Shown here: positions 37,455-46,991 of the stretch, piece after piece
How positions within the stretch are numbered: position 1 is the first letter of the stretch
Layout: each line of letters begins with the position of its first letter
NCBI RefSeq assembly: GCF_011947195.1
Contig: NZ_JAATVY010000002.1
Span: 434,001-498,000, forward strand
Reading direction: 5' to 3'
Length of the DNA: 64,000 bases
From: Planosporangium thailandense
GTDB lineage: Bacteria; Actinomycetota; Actinomycetes; Mycobacteriales; Micromonosporaceae
Made by a program: the position numbers and the translations under genes
Notes under the pieces: model-generated
The model's input: only the letters and a program-made list of their open reading frames with translations
Told to the model about the DNA's origin: nothing
The model's database searches: none

Positions 37455-39200
37455 CTAGTCGTCGAGCCAGTTGAGCTGCTGCCGGTCGCCGCCCTGACCC
37501 GCCTGCGGCGCGCCGCGCCGGGCCGCACCCGCCGTGGGCGCCGGCGGGGGCTCCTCCTGGTGGTACGGGTCCTGGGGCGGCGGGTAAGCGGCGGTGTTGT
37601 CGTAGCCGCCGTGCTGCTGCTGTGCGCCGTAGCCGCCCTGCTGGGGCCCAGCGGCGGGGTAGGTGCCCCCGTCGCCCTGCCACGGCCGGGTGGCCTCCTC
37701 GTAGCGCGGAGGGGCACCGGCGGGGCCGCCGTAGCCCGGCTGCCCACCGTAGGCCGGCTGCTGCCCGCCATAGCCGGGCTGCCCGCCGTAAGCCTGCTCG
37801 CCGCCGTAGCCGGGCTGTCCCCCGTACGCCGGCTGACCGCCGTACGGGTTGCCGTACTCGCCGCCCTGCATCGCGCCCGGCCCGTACATGGCCGTCGGAG
37901 CGCCGGCGTAGCCCTGCTGCTGCGTCGCCTGGTCGTAGCCGGCCGGGTAGCCGACCTGGGTCGGTGCGTCGTAGCCGCCGTACCCGTTCGGTGCCGGCGG
38001 GTAGCCGGGGTGCTGGGTCGGGTAGGGAGCCGCGTACGGGTCGGGGAACTCGTCCTCCGGACGCGCCGGGGGGATGATCGCGGTGGCCGCGTCCGAGACC
38101 CCGGGCATCCCCATCGCCTGCGTCATGCCGGGATGTCCGACCATCGGGGCGCCGCCGTACATCCCGGCACCGGCCGGTCCGTTGGGGCCGCTCGGCGCGG
38201 CACCCTCGTCGCCTTCGTCGTCGTCGCGCTTGCGGCGGTTGACGAACATCATGACGAACACGCCGATGCCGGCCAGGACGAGCAGCACGGCCAGGACGAG
38301 GATGATCCACGAGACGGCGCTGAGGCCGGTGCTGGAGGCCGCCTTCTGGGTGTTCGGAGCGGCCGCCTGCGGCGTGGCCCCGTCGGCGCTCGGGGCCTGG
38401 CCGTCGAGGCTGGGCAGCGCTTCCGGGCTGGCCGAGTCGCTGGCGACGGCGGTCGGCTTCAGCGCGAACACGACGTTGACGGACTGGCCGGCCTGCGCGT
38501 CGACACCCTTGACCTGGGTTTCGTACCCGTTCTTGCTGACGCCGATCTGCAGGGTGCCCGGCGTGATGGGCTTGTCCGATGTCGCGGTGAACTTGAAGTT
38601 GCCGTTGTTGTCGGTGCCGGTCTGGCACGGCGACTTCCCCGGCGCGCAGGCGCCGTTGTCGCCCAGCGCCACCAGGGCGTTCTTGACCGCGGCGCCGGTC
38701 GTGGAGTCCTTCACCGTGCCGGTGACCTGCGTGACCGTCGGCGCCTTCGTCGGCGACGGCTGGGGGCCCTTCACGGTGGCGCTGAAGCTCCCCGAGTCGC
38801 TGGCGCCGGTCGTGTCATTGGCGGTGACCGTGCCCTGAATCTGCTTCGACTGCCCGGGATCGACGTTCCCGGTCGCCTGCAGGGTGATGCGCACCGTCTT
38901 CGACGACGGGGCGGTGAAGGTGAGGGTGCACCGAACGCCGTCCCAGCCCTGGCAGTCCGCGGCCGTGGCGGTCGCGTTGGTGGGGTTCGGCAGCGTGAGG
39001 GTGACCTTGGCCGCCGGCGACGTCTCGGTCACCGTGACGTTCAGCGTCTGCTGCTGGTTGGGGGCGAAGTCCGGCAGCGATCCGACCTTCACCGTGACGG
39101 TGCCGGGGTCGGCGTACGCGGGGCCCGCGATGGCCAGGGCACCGAGCGCGGCGATCCCCGCCACGCCGGCGCCCATCAATGCTTTCGGGTGTCTGGTCAC
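37455..39200 (-). CDS. Membrane-anchored surface protein with long YGGQP-rich tail
   Basis: A 581-residue protein. GTG 39200, with GGAGG seven bases upstream, starts a signal peptide (KALMGAGVAGIAALGALAIAG) ending near AYA-DP. The outer part has a DUF11/Ig-like domain and a carboxypeptidase-regulatory-like or Cna-B-type domain (VTGTVKDSTTGAAVKNALVAL, TDNNGNFKFTATSDKP). A membrane helix (SWIILVLAVLLVLAGIGVFV) and a basic stop (NRRKRDDDE) follow. The last 250 residues are cytoplasmic, disordered and rich in Gly, Tyr, Pro and Gln, with repeated YGGQPGYGG units. It resembles cell-surface scaffolds, but the function is unknown. Confidence 0.85.
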   Translation of the reverse strand: MTRHPKALMGAGVAGIAALGALAIAGPAYADPGTVTVKVGSLPDFAPNQQQTLNVTVTETSPAAKVTLTLPNPTNATATAADCQGWDGVRCTLTFTAPSSKTVRITLQATGNVDPGQSKQIQGTVTANDTTGASDSGSFSATVKGPQPSPTKAPTVTQVTGTVKDSTTGAAVKNALVALGDNGACAPGKSPCQTGTDNNGNFKFTATSDKPITPGTLQIGVSKNGYETQVKGVDAQAGQSVNVVFALKPTAVASDSASPEALPSLDGQAPSADGATPQAAAPNTQKAASSTGLSAVSWIILVLAVLLVLAGIGVFVMMFVNRRKRDDDEGDEGAAPSGPNGPAGAGMYGGAPMVGHPGMTQAMGMPGVSDAATAIIPPARPEDEFPDPYAAPYPTQHPGYPPAPNGYGGYDAPTQVGYPAGYDQATQQQGYAGAPTAMYGPGAMQGGEYGNPYGGQPAYGGQPGYGGEQAYGGQPGYGGQQPAYGGQPGYGGPAGAPPRYEEATRPWQGDGGTYPAAGPQQGGYGAQQQHGGYDNTAAYPPPQDPYHQEEPPPAPTAGAARRGAPQAGQGGDRQQLNWLDD

Positions 39201-39352
39201 GCCGCCAGCCCTCCGGTTCGTTCCCCGCTGAACCTCATCCGAGCCCTTCCCCGCCGCTGTCGACTGCGCCATGTCGAGCGGCGTTCCTGTAGCGTGCTGC
39301 ACCGCAGCAAACTATGCCTTGTCCATCGGCCTGCGCGAAAGGCAGGCACGTG

Positions 39353-39742: not shown

Positions 39743-39895
39743 CGACGGGGTGGGCGACTAGATCACGGCCCATGTCCGAATTGTGCCAGTGGGTCGGAGT
39801 ATGAACCTCGGGTACGCTGGGTGCCGCGACGACCAGCGTGTGCGTGGCGGCAACGTCACCCCGACGCCCCACGGCGACATTTCACAGGAGCGGCA

Positions 39896-41530
39896 GTGCC
39901 CCGAGGCGACGGTCTGCTTACGCATGACCTCGATCCCCAACACCCCGGCCCGCAGGATGCGTGTGGCGTCTTCGGCGTCTGGGCGCCCGGCGAAGAGGTC
40001 TCCAAGCTGACGTACTTCGGGCTGTACGCGCTGCAGCACCGGGGCCAGGAGGCGGCCGGCATCGCCGTCTCCGACGGGTCGAGCGTGGTGGTCTACAAGG
40101 ACCTGGGCCTGGTGGCACAGGTCTTCGACGAACCGACCCTGGCGAGCCTGCGCGGCCACATCGCCATCGGTCACGCGCGCTACTCCACCACCGGCGCCTC
40201 CACCTGGGAGAACGCCCAGCCGACGCTGCGGGCGACCCCGCCGCGCGGCCCCGCCGGGGGCGAGTCGGCGGCCACGACGATCGCCCTTGCGCACAACGGC
40301 AACCTGGTCAACACCGCCGAGCTCGCGCGCCGCGTGGCCGAGCTGGGCATCACCGACACCAACGCGACCTCGGACACCGCGCTCGTCACGGCGCTTCTCG
40401 CGGCCAAGCCCGACCTGTCGGTCGAGGCCGCGGCGCTCGAGGTGCTCCCCACCCTGCGCGGCGCCTTCAGCTTCGTCTTCATGGACGAGAACACCCTGTA
40501 TGCGGCGCGCGACCCGCAGGGGGTACGGCCGCTGGTGCTGGGCCGCCTGGAGCGGGGCTGGGTGGTCGCGAGCGAGACCGCCGCCCTCGACATGGTGGGC
40601 GCCAGCGTGGTCCGCGAGATCGAGCCGGGCGAGCTGGTCGCGATCGACGAGCACGGGCTGCGCTCGAGCCGGTTCGCCGTCCCGGACCCCAAGGGCTGCC
40701 TGTTCGAGTACGTCTACCTGGCGCGCCCGGACAGCACGATCAGCGGCCGCAACATCTACGCCGGCCGGGTGGCGATCGGGCGGGCGCTCGCCCGCGAGTA
40801 CCCCGCCGAGGCCGACCTCGTGATCCCGGTTCCCGAGTCGGGCACTCCGGCCGCGATCGGGTACGCGGAGGAGTCGGGGATCACCTACGGCGCCGGGCTC
40901 GTCAAGAACGCCTACGTCGGGCGCACGTTCATCCAGCCGTCGCAGACGATCCGTCAGCTGGGCATCCGGCTGAAGCTCAACCCGCTGCGCGACAACGTAC
41001 GGGGCAAGCGGGTCGTCGTGGTCGACGACTCGATCGTGCGGGGCAACACGCAGCGGGCGATCATCCGGATGCTGCGCGAGGCCGGCGCCGTCGAGGTGCA
41101 CGTCCGCATCTCGTCTCCGCCGGTCAAGTGGCCGTGCTTCTACGGCATCGACTTCGCCACGAAGGCCGAGCTGCTCGCCAACGGCCTGGACACCGAGGGG
41201 ATCCGGCGGTCGATCGGGGCCGACTCGCTGGGGTACATCTCGCTGCCGGGCCTGATCGCGGCGACCGAGCAGCCCAAGACCCGGCTGTGCCGGGCGTGCT
41301 TCGACGGGGAGTACCCGATCGACCTCCCCGCCGATAACGTCATCGGCAAACACGTGCTGGAGGGGCTGGCCAAGACGGCCAGCAGTTCCGGTGGCCGTGC
41401 CCCGCGGCGCGAGGCGGACTCGTCGCACCCCGGCGAGAACGCCCGGCGCGCCGGTAATGATCTGCAGGCTGGCGGCGGCGATCGCGTCGCGGCAAGTCCC
41501 GGCGGCGCGGATGCCCTGTTGCGTCCGTGA
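39896..41530 (+). CDS. purF: Amidophosphoribosyltransferase
   Basis: First enzyme of purine synthesis: transfers glutamine ammonia to PRPP. GTG 39896 follows AGGAG by five bases. A 22-residue propeptide precedes Cys23 in DACGVFGVWA, which becomes the N-terminal nucleophile after cleavage. The PRPP-binding motif is VVVVDDSIVRGNTQR. Cys residues in KGCLFEY, KWPCFYGID and RLCRACFDGEY fit the [4Fe-4S] type known in Bacillus. The roughly 45-residue C-terminal tail after the conserved part is Arg/Ala-rich and unusual. Confidence 0.95.
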   Translation: MPRGDGLLTHDLDPQHPGPQDACGVFGVWAPGEEVSKLTYFGLYALQHRGQEAAGIAVSDGSSVVVYKDLGLVAQVFDEPTLASLRGHIAIGHARYSTTGASTWENAQPTLRATPPRGPAGGESAATTIALAHNGNLVNTAELARRVAELGITDTNATSDTALVTALLAAKPDLSVEAAALEVLPTLRGAFSFVFMDENTLYAARDPQGVRPLVLGRLERGWVVASETAALDMVGASVVREIEPGELVAIDEHGLRSSRFAVPDPKGCLFEYVYLARPDSTISGRNIYAGRVAIGRALAREYPAEADLVIPVPESGTPAAIGYAEESGITYGAGLVKNAYVGRTFIQPSQTIRQLGIRLKLNPLRDNVRGKRVVVVDDSIVRGNTQRAIIRMLREAGAVEVHVRISSPPVKWPCFYGIDFATKAELLANGLDTEGIRRSIGADSLGYISLPGLIAATEQPKTRLCRACFDGEYPIDLPADNVIGKHVLEGLAKTASSSGGRAPRREADSSHPGENARRAGNDLQAGGGDRVAASPGGADALLRP

Positions 41531-41617
41531 CGTGAGGTTCGACCCGCGGGCGTCGAGTAATCGATCCGGCGGTACTCGCGGTAGCAGCCGCGATGCATAT
41601 GGGAGAAAGTGACGCAC

Positions 41618-42814
41618 GTGACTGAGCGCATCGACAACGCGGACGCCAACGGCGTACCTGGAACCGCCGACAACGGAGAGACGGCCGAGACGACCGAGCA
41701 GGGCAGGAAGGCCGACAAGCAGCTGTGGTCGGCCGGCAGCAACGGCCGCGAGCGGCGCCGGCGTACCGTCACCTACGCCGACGCGGGCGTTTCGATCCAC
41801 GCCGGTGAGCAGGCGGTCGAGCTGCTCAAAGGCAAGGTCCACCGCACCTGGCGGCCGGAGGTCGTCGGCGACATCGGCGGCTTCGCGGGCCTGTTCCGGC
41901 TGGACGTGAACAAGTACCGCAACCCGGTCCTGGCCTCCTCCACCGACGGCGTCGGCACCAAGCTGGTCATCGCCCAGCAGATGGACATCCACGACACGGT
42001 CGGCATCGACCTGGTCGCGATGGTCGTCGACGATCTCGTCGCGTGCGGGGCTGAGCCGCTGTTCCTGCTCGACTACATCGCGTGTGGCGAGGTCGTGCCC
42101 GAGCGGGTGGCCGAGATCGGCGCGGGGATCGCCGACGGCTGCCGGTACGCCGGATGCTCGCTGCTGGGCGGCGAGACGGCCGAGCACCCGGGCGTGATGC
42201 GGCCCGACGAGTACGACATCTCCGGCACCGGCGTCGGTGTGGTCGAGGAGGACCAGATCCTGGGCCGCGACCGGGTCGAGGTCGGCGACGTCGTGATCGC
42301 CATGCGCTCCTCGGGGCTGCACTCCAACGGCTACTCGCTGGTCCGGCACGTCCTGCTGGGCGCCGGTCGGATGCGGCTGGACAGCGTGGTGGAGGAGTTC
42401 GGCCGGCAGCGCACGCTCGGCGAGGAGCTGCTCACGCCGACCAAGATCTACGCCCGGGACTGCCTGGACCTGATCACCGAGTGCGACGTGCACGCGCTGG
42501 CCCACGTGACCGGCGGCGGCATCCCCGGCAACCTGGTCCGGGTGCTGCCCGACCACGTCGACGCCGTGGTCGACCGGGCCACGTGGCGGCCGCAACCCAT
42601 CTTCGAGCTGGTGCGCACCAAGGGGCGCATCGACGACATGGAGATGGAGAGCACGTTCAACATGGGCATCGGCATGTTCGCGATCGTCGCGGCCGAGGAC
42701 GCCGACCGTACGCTGGCGTTCCTCGCCGGTCGCGGGATCGACTCCTGGCAGGTCGGCGAGGTCATCGAGGGCACCGGGAATGTCCAGATGGTCGGTTCCC
42801 ACACGCGAGGCTGA
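41618..42814 (+). CDS. purM: Phosphoribosylformylglycinamidine cyclo-ligase
   Basis: AIR synthetase, which closes FGAM to aminoimidazole ribotide using ATP. The 398-residue length includes about 50 extra residues at the N-terminus, rich in Glu, Thr and Ala, before the conserved TYADAGVSIHAGEQAVELLK. STDGVGTKLVIAQ, LLGGETAEHPG and HVTGGGIPGNLVRVLP are typical motifs. GTG 41618 was chosen; GTG 41609 is in frame but almost touches the GGGAGA ribosome-binding site. It is preceded by purF in the same direction. Confidence 0.95.
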   Translation: MTERIDNADANGVPGTADNGETAETTEQGRKADKQLWSAGSNGRERRRRTVTYADAGVSIHAGEQAVELLKGKVHRTWRPEVVGDIGGFAGLFRLDVNKYRNPVLASSTDGVGTKLVIAQQMDIHDTVGIDLVAMVVDDLVACGAEPLFLLDYIACGEVVPERVAEIGAGIADGCRYAGCSLLGGETAEHPGVMRPDEYDISGTGVGVVEEDQILGRDRVEVGDVVIAMRSSGLHSNGYSLVRHVLLGAGRMRLDSVVEEFGRQRTLGEELLTPTKIYARDCLDLITECDVHALAHVTGGGIPGNLVRVLPDHVDAVVDRATWRPQPIFELVRTKGRIDDMEMESTFNMGIGMFAIVAAEDADRTLAFLAGRGIDSWQVGEVIEGTGNVQMVGSHTRG

Positions 42815-42903
42815 CCCACAGACCTCCCGACGGATCTAGAACCCGGTACCGCCACCGCATACGCTGAACCTTCCTACGGCGCCAGCCCGAGGAGGACACC
42901 GGT

Positions 42904-44007
42904 TTGTGGACGGGCATGCGAGGGATCGCCCCGGTTCCGGGGTACGTCGTCATGCAACCGACCACCTTGTGCAATCTCGACTGCGCGTACTGCTACCTGC
43001 CGCATCGCGCGGTTGACCGCCGCATGCCGGCGGAGGTGGCGCGGGCGGTCGCGTCCTCGGTCAACGGGTGGGCGGCCGCGAACGACCGGTTCTCGGTGGT
43101 CTGGCACGGCGGGGAGCCCCTCGCGGCCGGGCGGGCGCACCTCGCCGACCTGATGGCGCCGTTCGCCGGTGTCGAGCACCACGTACAGACGAACGCGACA
43201 CTCATCGACGACGCCTGGTGCGAGTTCTTCGTCAGGCACGACGTACGCGTGAGCGTCAGCGTCGACGGGCCGGCGGAGTCGAACTCCGACCGGGTCACCC
43301 GGGGCGGCTCCCCGGCGTACGGGCGCATCCTGCGCGGCGTCGAGGCGCTGCGCAGGCACGGCATCCCGTTCTCCGCCCTGTGCGTGGTCTCCGCCCCCCG
43401 CGGCGGCCTCGCCAAGGAGCTGTACGCGTACTTCCTCGAGCTCGGCTGTGAGGTGCTGGGCTTCAACATCGAGGAGCGGGAGGGCGTCAACTCCCGCTCC
43501 AACGATTTCGGCGACGACGCCGTGCGTACCTTCTGGGCCGAGCTGGTGGAGGCCTGGCGGTCGGACCCCCGGCTCCACGTCCGGGAGGTCGAATGGACTC
43601 TGCGGTACGCCGGCGCCGTCCTCGACGGGACGGCTGACGAGGTGCTGCCCCGGGCGCTCGACCCGATCCCGACGGTCGCCGCCGACGGCCGGGTCTTCCT
43701 GTTCTCACCCGAGCTCGCCGGCTTCACCGACCCGCGCTACGGCGATTTCAGCAGCGGCAACGTGTTGACCACCCCGCTCGACGAGGTGTTGCGTGGGGCC
43801 GCGGGCTCCGCGTCCTGGGTACCCGAGTACCTCGCGGGGGTCGAGGCGTGCCGGAACGCGTGCCCCTACTTCGGGTTCTGCGGCGGCGCCCACGCGGCCA
43901 ACCGGTACTTCGAGCACGGCCGCTTCGACGGTACGCAGACCAGCCACTGCCGAAATAGCAAGATCCAGCTACTGGAGGGAGTGCTCGACCATGCCCGAAC
44001 CCACTGA
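42904..44007 (+). CDS. amcB: Radical SAM/SPASM cyclophane-forming peptide maturase (AmcB-like)
   Basis: A 367-residue radical SAM enzyme. Cys23, Cys27 and Cys30 in LCNLDCAYCYLP bind the [4Fe-4S] cluster that cleaves SAM. WHGGEPLAAG and SVSVDGPAESN are standard core motifs. The C-terminus has a SPASM-like set, Cys316, Cys320, Cys326 and Cys349 (ACRNACPYFGFCGG ... SHCRNSK), for auxiliary clusters. TTG 42904 lies eight bases after GGAGGA; the ATG at 42916 is an alternative. The gene overlaps the start of a 65-residue precursor-like peptide by 17 bases. The predicted action is a bond between an aromatic ring and a beta-carbon two residues downstream. The AmcB name is from recall of the family, not a search. 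Confidence 0.8.
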   Translation: MWTGMRGIAPVPGYVVMQPTTLCNLDCAYCYLPHRAVDRRMPAEVARAVASSVNGWAAANDRFSVVWHGGEPLAAGRAHLADLMAPFAGVEHHVQTNATLIDDAWCEFFVRHDVRVSVSVDGPAESNSDRVTRGGSPAYGRILRGVEALRRHGIPFSALCVVSAPRGGLAKELYAYFLELGCEVLGFNIEEREGVNSRSNDFGDDAVRTFWAELVEAWRSDPRLHVREVEWTLRYAGAVLDGTADEVLPRALDPIPTVAADGRVFLFSPELAGFTDPRYGDFSSGNVLTTPLDEVLRGAAGSASWVPEYLAGVEACRNACPYFGFCGGAHAANRYFEHGRFDGTQTSHCRNSKIQLLEGVLDHARTH

Positions 44008-44188
44008 TGCGGTCGCGGCTCGGGTGCGCGGGGCTGCCGCTGGCCTCGAGCGTTTGCTGGCGCACGCCCGGGCGGCCCGTTCCGCGCGGTCAGAACTCCC
44101 CGGCGGCGACGGCGGCAGCGCGGTGTGCGCCTGGAACCACTTCGAGAACATCCCGACGTTCTACAACTGGAACAACCGTCCGCGGTGA
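43991..44188 (+). CDS. amcA: RiPP precursor peptide with packed cyclophane motifs (AmcA-like)
   Basis: A 65-residue peptide. Residues 1-40 form a helical, Ala/Arg-rich leader (GLERLLAHARAARSARSE). After a glycine-rich PGGDGGSA, the core holds Cys46 and four aromatic-X-X motifs: Trp48-Asn-His, Phe51-Glu-Asn, Phe57-Tyr-Asn and Trp60-Asn-Asn. Three-residue cyclophane enzymes join the first and third residue of such motifs. The ATG lies inside the maturase gene, so both are translationally coupled. A hairpin follows 24 bases after the stop. No protease or exporter is adjacent. The product structure is a prediction. Confidence 0.8.
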   Translation: MPEPTDAVAARVRGAAAGLERLLAHARAARSARSELPGGDGGSAVCAWNHFENIPTFYNWNNRPR

Positions 44189-44211
44189 CCCACAACGTCG
44201 CCTGAGCCGTG

Positions 44212-44245
44212 TCTCCCGTGCGGTACGTGCGTACGGCACGGGAGA
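44212..44245 (+). terminator. Terminator after the precursor peptide gene
   Basis: TCTCCCGTGC and GCACGGGAGA form a perfect 10-bp stem, extended inward by GTAC-GTAC pairing. It lies 24 bases after the precursor stop and closes the maturase-precursor operon. Confidence 0.75.
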
Positions 44246-44388: not shown

Positions 44389-44616
44389 TCAGCGACGGCC
44401 CGGAGGTGAGCTTCTTCCCGCCTCGCGGTCGTCCTCCTCTTCCTCGTCCTCCTCGTCGTCTTCGACGTACTCGCCGTACTCGTCGAAGTCGTCGTCGGAC
44501 GTCCGCTTGTTTCCGGCCAGCTCCCGCTGCAACGCGGCGAGGTCGGTGTTCGGGGAGTGGTACTTCAGCTCCCGGGCCACCCTCGTCTGCTTGGCCTTAG
44601 CACGGCCGCGCCCCAT
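44389..44616 (-). CDS. DUF3073 family protein
   Basis: A 75-residue actinobacterial protein. The basic N-terminus MGRGRAKAKQTRVARELKYH, followed by a highly acidic tail of Asp and Glu, is the family hallmark. ATG 44616 gives the usual MGRGR start; the longer reading frame upstream is not used. Function is unknown. The charge split suggests nucleic-acid or ribosome binding. Its location near purM and the branched-chain dehydrogenase is common in actinobacteria. Confidence 0.92.
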   Translation of the reverse strand: MGRGRAKAKQTRVARELKYHSPNTDLAALQRELAGNKRTSDDDFDEYGEYVEDDEEDEEEEDDREAGRSSPPGRR

Positions 44617-44812
44617 GGCTCGACCCCCTCGCACGAAATTACGGGGCAGCCGTTCCCGGCGAGCCCCACACGTCAGGCATCTCTCGTGGCTCTTACGGTA
44701 CATGTCGTCACGCGGTTTCGGCATCTCGCCCTCCCCGGCGTGCCGGTGGCTTTGCACACCGGTTCGGCCAGGGTCGTAATGCCTGGTGGCAGGGCTAGCC
44801 CGGCACCACGGG

Positions 44813-44865: not shown

Positions 44866-45957
44866 TCAGCGCTCCCGGGGCAGCCGGATCGTCCGCAGCC
44901 GGCCGACATCGGCCATCCGGCGCTCGGCGAGCCGGTCGGCGGCGACCGCCGGGGGCACACCCTCGTCGCGAGCCAGCTCCAGGATCTGCCGGGTGGTGTC
45001 GTAGATCTTGCTGGCGCGGGACTTGGCCCGGTCGAAGTTGAAGCCCTCGATCTCGTCGGCGACCTGGATCACGCCGCCCGAGTTGACCACGTAGTCGGGG
45101 GCGTACAGGATGCCCCGCTCGTCCAGCAGCTTCTCGATACCGGGGTGCGCGAGCTGGTTGTTGGCCGCCCCGGCGACGATCTTGGCGCGCAGCAGGGCGA
45201 CGGTGTCGTCGTTCAGGGCGCCGCCCAGCGCGCAGGGGGCGTACACGTCGATGTCAGACGTGATCAGCTTGGTCACGTCGTCGACGAGGTCGACCTGGGA
45301 ATAGGTGGTCCGCGCCCACTCGAGGGCGCGCTCGGACACGTCCGTGGCCACCACCTGGGCGCCGTCGTCGAGCAGGTGCCTGGTCAGGTGCTTGCCCACC
45401 TTGCCCAGGCCGGCGATGCCGACCCGCCGGCCGGCGAGGGTGGGCGTGCCCCAACGGTGCTCGGCCGCCGCCCGCATGCCCTGGAACACGCCGTACGCGG
45501 TCAGGACGGAGGAGTCGCCGGCGCCGCCGTGCGCCTCGGAGCGTCCGGTCACGAACCGCGTCTCACGCGCGATGACGTCCATGTCCTGGACGTAGGTGCC
45601 GACGTCACACGCGGTGTAGTAGCGGCCACCGAGCGACTCGACGAACCGCCCGTACGCGCGCAGCAGCGGTTCGGACTTGTCGCGATCGGGGTCGCCCCAG
45701 ATGACCGCCTTGCCGCCGCCGAGGTCGAGGCCGGCGAGCGCGTTCTTGTACGCCATGCCGCGGGAGAGGTCGAGCGCGTCGCGGACGGCGTCCTCTTCAC
45801 TGGCGTACGGGTAGAAGCGGGTACCGCCGAGCGCGGGCCCGAGGGCGGTGGAGTAGATCGCGATGATCGCGCGGAGGCCGCTCTGCTTGTCCTGGCAGAA
45901 CACGACCTGCTCATGACCGGTCGGCTCGTAGCCGTCCGAGGCGGTGAAAACGCCCAT
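44866..45957 (-). CDS. Valine/leucine dehydrogenase
   Basis: NAD-dependent amino-acid dehydrogenase of 363 residues, near the length of streptomycete valine dehydrogenase. The substrate-binding [21 protein letters not shown] and catalytic Lys in [17 protein letters not shown] are visible. The Rossmann motif is [17 protein letters not shown], and NNQLA and [16 protein letters not shown] belong to the Glu/Leu/Phe/Val family. It deaminates branched-chain amino acids, supplying precursors for branched fatty acids. ATG 45957 has AAGGAG upstream. The choice between valine and leucine as substrate is open. Confidence 0.9.
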
Positions 45958-46151
45958 GGGAACTCCTTGTGGGGCCAAGGCAATGGAAGGCCGGCCGGGT
46001 GGTGCCGGCAAGACCTGAGCCTAGTGCTCCGAGCCCGTACGCGCGTCGATCGACGGCTGAGTGCCCCATTTCGTGGACCGGCTGCCCGGATTGATGACGT
46101 CCCATCGCGGGGAAAGTGCGGCGGCGTGTCCAAACGTGGCACGATCGCGGC

Positions 46152-46991
46152 GTGCCGTCACTGTTCGCCTCATACCTTCGGGTGTACGAGCCACTTACCG
46201 CGTTCGACCGGGAGCGTCAGGTCTACTGGCGCCGCTACGTGAAGGAGGGGCGCGCGGTGGCGCCCGCCGAGGGGCCGGGCCGCCAGCGTACGGCCGTCCT
46301 GGAGGCGCTCGGCGCGGGCTGGACCCGACTACCCGAACTGCCCGACGAGGCGTACGTCCTCGAAGCCGACGAGAACCTGCTGATCTGCCCGTGGAACCTG
46401 CGCATCCGGGTCGCCGAAGCCGCGCTCACCGCGCGCGACGGGGTGCCGGGCGTCCTGGCCGACGCGTTCGTGCCGCCGCTGTTCGCCGGACTGGCGCGGA
46501 GCGTCCTCGATGACTGGCGTAGCGGCGCCCGGGTGCTGGAACGGGGCATGCCGAGAGTGCACGAGCAGGTGGCCACCTGGGGTGTGCCGCTGCGTTGGTT
46601 CGTCTTCGTGGACCTGTCCGAGCGCGAGCTGGTGCTGGGTCCGGAGCGGCGCGTGCTGCGTTACCGGACGGAGATCGCCAAGGCGCGTCGCCGGGCCCAC
46701 CGGGCGCGGTCGGTGCTGCGCCGGTCGCTCGGCGACGCGCCGATCACGGCCGCGGTCGAGGAGACGGCGCGGTGGCTGGAGGAGTTCCACCCCCGCTCGG
46801 TCGTCGAGCTGGACTACGGGGGCCTTGTCAATCTGCTATCCGACGATTCCCTCGCCGAGGACGACTCTCCAGGGTTGGTGGCGGCAGGCCTTGCGGCCGT
46901 CGGTCGGGGCGAAGCAGACTCCGCTACCTCGGCATATGAGCGCCTCGTGGAGCGGTGGCGCGCCGTGCAACTGCTGGAACGGTGCAACTGA
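46152..46991 (+). CDS. Conserved actinobacterial hypothetical protein
   Basis: A 279-residue soluble protein I cannot name. GTG 46152 is followed by PSLFASYLRVYEPLTAFDRE, a start that is common to homologues next to bldC. The middle reads WNLRIRVAEAALTARDGVPGVLAD and ELDYGGLVNLL, with Trp, Arg and Leu conserved in appearance. No membrane segments are evident. It sits between the dehydrogenase and bldC. Confidence 0.75.
   Translation: MPSLFASYLRVYEPLTAFDRERQVYWRRYVKEGRAVAPAEGPGRQRTAVLEALGAGWTRLPELPDEAYVLEADENLLICPWNLRIRVAEAALTARDGVPGVLADAFVPPLFAGLARSVLDDWRSGARVLERGMPRVHEQVATWGVPLRWFVFVDLSERELVLGPERRVLRYRTEIAKARRRAHRARSVLRRSLGDAPITAAVEETARWLEEFHPRSVVELDYGGLVNLLSDDSLAEDDSPGLVAAGLAAVGRGEADSATSAYERLVERWRAVQLLERCN

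Follow-up and report, generated by a model that had tools for sequence, protein, structure and literature searches.

Among the closest described systems are the triceptides: peptides with aromatic-x-Asn/Asp motifs paired with a radical SAM maturase, as in the systems of XncB, OscB, MscB, YxdB, HaaB, and YhhB (PMC11002830). In the XncB and OscB systems, Trp or Phe becomes linked to the beta-carbon of Asn (PMC11002830), and this ring chemistry is the template for the mechanism proposed below. According to a 2025 paper, the bioactivities of triceptides are not yet elucidated (PMC12257519). A second point of reference is mycofactocin, which was argued to be an electron carrier on the basis of an invariant C-terminus that comes without a transporter or an immunity gene; bacteriocin products change fast and come with export, whereas the parts of cofactors stay constant (PMC3023750).

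Here we describe a maturase and precursor pair, amcBA, in a 64,000-nucleotide stretch of the Planosporangium thailandense genome (7.01 Mb, 114 contigs), which we call the window. The closest PurM is that of Planosporangium flavigriseum, at 96% identity. On sequence grounds, positions 42904-44188 are a member of AmcB/AmcA, a kind already named, and the assignment stands because both genes pass curated cut-offs. The maturase scores 498.5 bits against NF041718, NCBIfam's AmcB model (cut-off 425; positions 1-361 of 362), and the precursor scores 113.7 bits over the whole of NF041722, the AmcA_3a model (cut-off 65; positions 1-58). Nothing excludes membership. The family is covered by these two models together with NF041721 (AmcA_1), NF041723 (3b), and Pfam PF28164. 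The GrrM/OscB family (TIGR04261) differs: AmcB scores 252.1 bits against a cut-off of 310. Models of DynA and DarE also match, far under their cut-offs. Viperin identity was considered and rejected: the PADLOC matches are weak and confined to the radical SAM core (residues 19-154).

The precursor matched 1077 proteins at E <= 0.001, and NCBI names the AmcA relatives "multiple cyclophane-containing RiPP AmcA". A genome-contig scan provided 80 Micromonosporaceae loci, the best 80 of 168 confirmed relatives, and in all 80 a precursor lies behind the maturase. The pair is therefore not a chance arrangement, given the curated cut-offs passed, the 1077 matches, and this constant association. An earlier note on the window, made by reading the letters and their open reading frames, had placed the pair with AmcA/AmcB, a filing that the curated models bear out; its coordinates, frames, 17-base overlap, 65-residue peptide, and four motifs were all found again. 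It had also held that the proposal would fall if the frame at 43991 were not conserved beside homologous maturases, and a precursor proved to stand there in every one of these loci. The locus is new and its kind is named; the interest lies in a frozen peptide core and a fixed chromosomal place. The literature searched yielded no paper describing AmcA/AmcB, the frozen core, or the fixed place.

Table 1. Features of the amcBA locus, in window coordinates.
Feature	Position	Strand	Basis or remark
purF	39821-41530	same as amcB/amcA	
purM	41609-42814	same as amcB/amcA	
TACGCTG, -10-like element, possible own promoter of amcBA	42860-42866	+	between purM and amcB
amcB, 367-aa predicted cyclophane-forming radical SAM maturase	42904-44007	+	NF041718, 498.5 bits; TTG start
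amcA, 65-aa precursor	43991-44188	+	NF041722, 113.7 bits; PF28164 precomputed
Leader, residues 1-43, variable	43991-44119	+	column counts over 80 rows
Frozen core AVCAWNHFENIPTFYNWNNRPR, residues 44-65	44120-44185	+	21 of 22 columns invariant, Tyr58 in 78 (80 type-3a rows)
Doubtful fourth motif Trp48-Asn-His50	44132-44140	+	invariant in 80 type-3a rows
Predicted ring A motif Phe51-Glu-Asn53	44141-44149	+	F-E-N in 80 type-3a rows
Predicted ring B motif Phe57-Tyr-Asn59	44159-44167	+	F-Y-N in 3a; F-F-N in Catellatospora
Predicted ring C motif Trp60-Asn-Asn62	44168-44176	+	W-N-N in 3a
Strong hairpin 3' of amcA, possible transcript end	44211-44245	+	folding against shuffles
DUF3073 gene	44389-44757	opposite to amcB/amcA	
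Glu/Leu/Phe/Val dehydrogenase	44866-46011	opposite to amcB/amcA	
MerR-type regulator, 69 aa	47308-47517		beyond the dehydrogenase gene

The core is where conservation concentrates. Among the best 80 of 168 loci, 77 retain the 22-residue core AVCAWNHFENIPTFYNWNNRPR and 76 have a precursor ending exactly in it, with one more adding a Gln; the departures include two Catellatospora loci, where Phe replaces Tyr58, and one locus (L043) with a type 3b precursor, the other 79 being type 3a. The same ending recurs in 115 of the best 120 of the 1077 precursor matches, the window's own included (four others add one residue and one ends in RPPR), and a further 32 loci, one of them the window's own and the rest chosen as best scoring, all carry it. 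Across 80 type-3a rows (the window plus 79 loci), mean pairwise identity is 0.998 in the core, 0.564 in the leader, 0.786 in AmcB, and 0.851 in PurM. The leader is not without fixed points: L19, L22, A29, R30, R33, and E35 are constant in all 80 rows, R11 and A26 in 79, and E25 in 77. The leader is likely to be the helix by which AmcB recognizes its substrate.

At the DNA level the picture changes: the core is encoded by 63 different DNA sequences in the 80 rows. At core positions 44-62, silent sites vary about as much as they do where amcB, purM, purF, and the dehydrogenase gene have invariant columns (78 rows); 673 of 5000 draws gave a sum no higher than the one observed. Because silent sites vary in the core as they do in housekeeping genes, it is the peptide on which selection acts, and this test lends no support to an additional constraint on the core at the nucleotide level. 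Recent spread can be ruled out as the cause of core identity, because there are 63 DNA versions, because silent variation is housekeeping-like, and because AmcB follows PurM in descent (identities correlate at r 0.889, and 0 of 2000 permutations reached as high a value).

The maturase shows a matching pattern of fixed residues. Eight cysteines are invariant in AmcB over the 80 rows, at positions 23, 27, 30, 106, 316, 320, 326, and 349. Cys23/27/30 are those of the radical SAM cluster and Cys316/320/326/349 are of the Aux II type, both sets as the earlier note had assigned them; Cys106 is invariant alongside them. The description of a radical SAM/SPASM enzyme stands in part: the Aux II-type cysteines are present, but the CX9-15GX4C segment with which the seven-cysteine SPASM motif starts (PMC5715301) is missing, and the SPASM part is a reduced version. 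AmcB thus does not carry the full motif (CX9-15GX4C..CX2CX5CX3C..C), whose seven cysteines serve two auxiliary clusters; after the radical SAM core it has just Cys316/320/326/349 in all 80 rows. The window's AmcB has no cysteine between 182 and 316 and would thus hold a single auxiliary cluster, that of the Aux II type.

A structure model of AmcB reached a pLDDT of 88.9. The solved folds closest to it are ChlB with ChlA (PDB 9gmc, 9gm3) and anSME (4k37), at TM-scores of 0.68-0.75, although ChlB and anSME share just 19-22% identity with it. The title of the ChlB paper reportedly terms ChlB a "multiple cyclophane synthase". anSME has two auxiliary clusters (PMC5715301), whereas AmcB has cysteines for one.

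The pair also holds its place. Among the best 80 of 168 loci, 78 have purM immediately upstream in the same orientation, all 80 have DUF3073 next downstream on the opposite strand, and 78 have a bldC-like regulator nearby, the contigs of the other two ending before bldC is reached; in the window, we take the 69-aa MerR-type regulator to be bldC. Where the surroundings are rearranged, the pair stays: both Catellatospora loci have the pur block inverted with amcBA still beside DUF3073, and four 3b loci (L157-L160) have the downstream side rearranged and bldC inverted close by, with amcBA still behind purM. amcBA acts as its own unit. What the earlier note had singled out as a natural-product candidate is thus less an isolated one than a frozen, position-fixed part of the Micromonosporaceae chromosome.

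Within the locus, the ATG of amcA at 43991 precedes the end of the amcB stop codon at 44007, which gives the 17-base overlap, and GAGGAGG precedes the TTG start of amcB. Upstream of amcB, the pattern TA[ACG][CG]CT[GA] occurs in 62 of 81 stretches, whereas Markov resamples average 3.1; the pattern was picked after inspection of the data, in stretches that are related rows, and both Catellatospora upstream stretches lack it. Obligate co-transcription with purM is doubtful, because the pur block is inverted away in the two Catellatospora loci and the -10-like element is present in 62 of 81 stretches. Downstream, segment 44185-44270 has a folding energy of -51.5 kcal/mol (z -4.88 relative to shuffles); the hairpin within it has no T run and is absent from the terminator-scan output. 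No transporter, protease, or immunity gene was found among the eight neighbor proteins of amcBA that were scanned. Two other proteins of the region deserve mention: a conserved 291-aa protein with no Pfam match (46116-46991), present in 79 of 80 syntenic loci (the contig of the other ends early), and a 615-aa protein (37455-39302, minus strand) adjoining the purine genes, with a weak, below-cut-off CarboxypepD_reg-like stretch and a tail rich in Gly, Tyr, and Gln.

The pair is widespread in one family. AmcB exceeds its cut-off in 208 of 250 Micromonosporaceae genomes; the AmcA_3a model is matched at E <= 0.001 in 199 (193 over cut-off, one match per matched row), two of which, G043 and G063, have AmcB fragments only. 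Counted by model matches and not by purM position, the two occur together in 197 of the 208. In ten of the remaining 11 the maturase does follow purM; what comes next is a different precursor or, in G093, the end of the contig. The eleventh, G041, has no amcB behind purM; it was dismissed as an AmcB genome outside the pattern, having only an AmcA_1-type paralogue and grouping with the amc-less rows. Under the AmcB cut-off are 42 genomes, and 37 of those listed belong to nine genera without any passing genome; in G043, G059, and G063 fragments lie where contigs break off, and the contig of G073 ends within purM. Beyond the family sample, AmcB was matched at E <= 1e-60 in 2 of 396 genomes across the phylum and at E <= 1e-50 in 12 of 121 across the order, all of them Micromonosporaceae. 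The purM-linked pair spans some 34 genera of the family, and 10 lack it.

Descent can be read against PurM. In a PurM tree with 114 rows, a single branch (SH-aLRT 99) has all 19 rows without amc to one side of it, and the same holds for 20 such rows when G041 is added and the very long row L169 is removed, again with SH-aLRT 99; both trees come from a quick method with a midpoint root, and the types of L172 and L129 were taken from genus or a weak match. The simplest reading of these sequences is a single gain of purM-linked amcBA; a single loss, instead of a gain, would be compatible with them. Types 3a and 3b each require three changes on the PurM trees, so 3a is not one clean clade. Among twelve amc-less regions, four (L174, L175, L178, and L182) have DUF3073 0.4-3 kb behind purM with no amcB, and the other eight showed no DUF3073 within the 7-9 kb read.

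How many rings the core closes is best approached through its relatives. A 3b query gave 149 proteins, and the best 120 of these sister precursors all read F-E-D at the ring A position and F-Y-Q at the ring B position, with F-T-N (118) or F-S-N (2) at the ring C position; the ring B position reads F-Y-E in L165 and F-W-E in L169. In these three persisting motifs, the third residue is Asn, Asp, Gln, or Glu. At the Trp48 position, the same 120 of 149 sisters have W-x-P (110), F-x-P (2), P-x-P (2), or W-x-A/S/V (6), so that the third residue is mostly Pro (114 of 120) and the first is non-aromatic in 2; the L157-L160 precursors have no Trp. We predict from these alignments three core rings (51-53, 57-59, and 60-62) and an optional one at 48-50: all four motifs named in the earlier note are in the window, but Trp48-Asn-His is not retained in sister precursors, and three rings are thus better supported than four. 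That all four motifs close, making the mature type-3a peptide ring-ring-IPT-ring-ring, is a serious possibility that we nonetheless do not expect. Trp48-Asn-His50 is invariant in all 80 type-3a rows, and it directly adjoins motif A, just as motifs B and C adjoin each other, an arrangement in which rings on neighboring triplets would share no residue; set against this are the Pro of the sister precursors and the PVAGPRPFED group, which lacks Trp. Since Trp48 is retained in 116 of the best 120 of 149 sisters, it may still have some role.

The freeze is one within subtypes, since the 3b, g23, and g33 cores differ from 3a. At the purM locus of other lineages, 3b and 3b-like cores read GWRPFEDAFPTFYQFTNRPR, PVAGPRPFEDAFPTFYQFSNRPQR, GWRAFEDSFPTFYEFTNRPR, and GWRAFSDAFPTFWEFSNRPR; the g23 core reads PRWTDVFTTQFTEFSNRPR; and the g33 core, CESTGTYYNWNNRSR, is shortened to just two motifs, with motif A missing, an exception to the persistence of three. 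Cys46 is absent from these variant cores outside 3a, except in g33. At the purM locus of L163, L164, and L167, the precursor has PRWTDVFTTQFTEFSNRPR at or close to its end; the two g23 precursors scanned (L164, L167) pass neither AmcA_3 cut-off, one being unmatched and one reaching 21.5 of 65 bits, so this form lies outside those models. The g33 genome has amcB and amcA in a single open frame, uninterrupted by a stop and with a possible internal GTG (L170:1483-2730, also L186 and G033:C429, with core CESTGTYYNWNNRSR); a public record lists it as a 413-aa "radical SAM protein" from a Dactylosporangium MAG. We rejected fusion as the general form: the search returned one protein (P0242), apparently from the same contig, so the fused frame could be an isolated oddity or an artifact of assembly.

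Some genomes carry elsewhere a second AmcB, 40-43% identical (L089-L096, L173, L187, L188), with AmcA_1 precursors such as KFDNRPTWDNKGKFDSRPGWDNWNKKK. In genus g4, AmcA_1 loci have eight core forms in ten loci (93% mean identity) against one core in 30 type-3a loci (of the 32 further loci), both samples being small and chosen by score. The AmcA_1 cores vary, and the AmcB family therefore also makes changing products.

Together, these features suggest the following route to a product. The overlap of amcB and amcA would couple translation of enzyme and substrate, and the AmcA leader helix would dock on AmcB. A 5'-deoxyadenosyl radical could then take a beta-hydrogen from Asn53, Asn59, and Asn62, and the resulting carbon radicals would add to Phe51, Phe57, or Trp60; an electron would exit via the one Aux II-type cluster, with 2.016 Da lost per ring. 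A protease encoded elsewhere may cut near residues 43/44 of AmcA. Two observations suggest that the product would be a fixed, self-directed molecule (a cofactor, a metal or redox ligand, or a signal): its sequence is conserved in the manner of an active site, and none of the eight neighbors scanned encodes a transporter, a protease, or an immunity function. On balance, we consider it probable that AmcB ties core aromatics to the beta-carbon two residues on, giving a three-ring, at most four-ring, peptide that serves the producer itself.

What kind of service this is can be weighed from the same evidence. An unchanged core in 77 of the best 80 of 168 loci, together with a constant chromosomal place for the two genes, points to a likely housekeeping role in Micromonosporaceae, not a weapon. 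A secreted antibacterial like darobactin and dynobactin is accordingly the explanation we find least credible: such cross-linked peptides can mimic beta-strands (PMC12257519) and the DynA and DarE models do match AmcB, though far under their cut-offs, yet a frozen core, near clade-wide presence, and descent with PurM are unlike an arms race, and the eight neighbors scanned include no transporter, protease, or immunity gene. The marks of a bacteriocin-type RiPP, a changing core with linked export, protease, and immunity genes, were not found among those eight neighbors and this core. Those of a peptide-derived cofactor (an invariant core, no linked transporter, vertical descent) were found, and they would equally fit a conserved signal.

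An exported developmental or quorum signal of Micromonosporaceae is less improbable than an antibacterial, though we still regard it as unlikely. Freezing and clade-specificity would be expected of it too, and a bldC-like regulator lies about 3 kb away (in 78 of the best 80 of 168 loci); but the regulator's nearness reflects old shared gene order, and no exporter is among the eight neighbors scanned. Slightly ahead of the signal, and still tentative, is a more specific form of the self-directed reading: type 3 AmcA as the precursor of a clade-wide intracellular multi-ring cofactor, or redox or metal ligand, the first such triceptide, born once at the purM-DUF3073 junction and kept since.

Compared with known systems, amcBA shares with the triceptides its motifs and its radical SAM maturase, and it offers them a directly testable case for a role: a frozen core at one place, without linked genes, in some 34 genera. 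Natural variants (3b without His50, g23, and the two-motif g33 core) could show which motifs form rings without the making of mutants. In its pattern of conservation, the pair appears to resemble the frozen precursor of mycofactocin more closely than a bacteriocin. As described in PMC3023750, the mycofactocin precursor is, like AmcA, small, with 23 strongly conserved C-terminal residues, a diverse N-terminus, and no transporter or immunity gene; mycofactocin differs in being a widely spread gene cluster with dependent dehydrogenases, whereas amcBA is a bare pair, found here in one family only.
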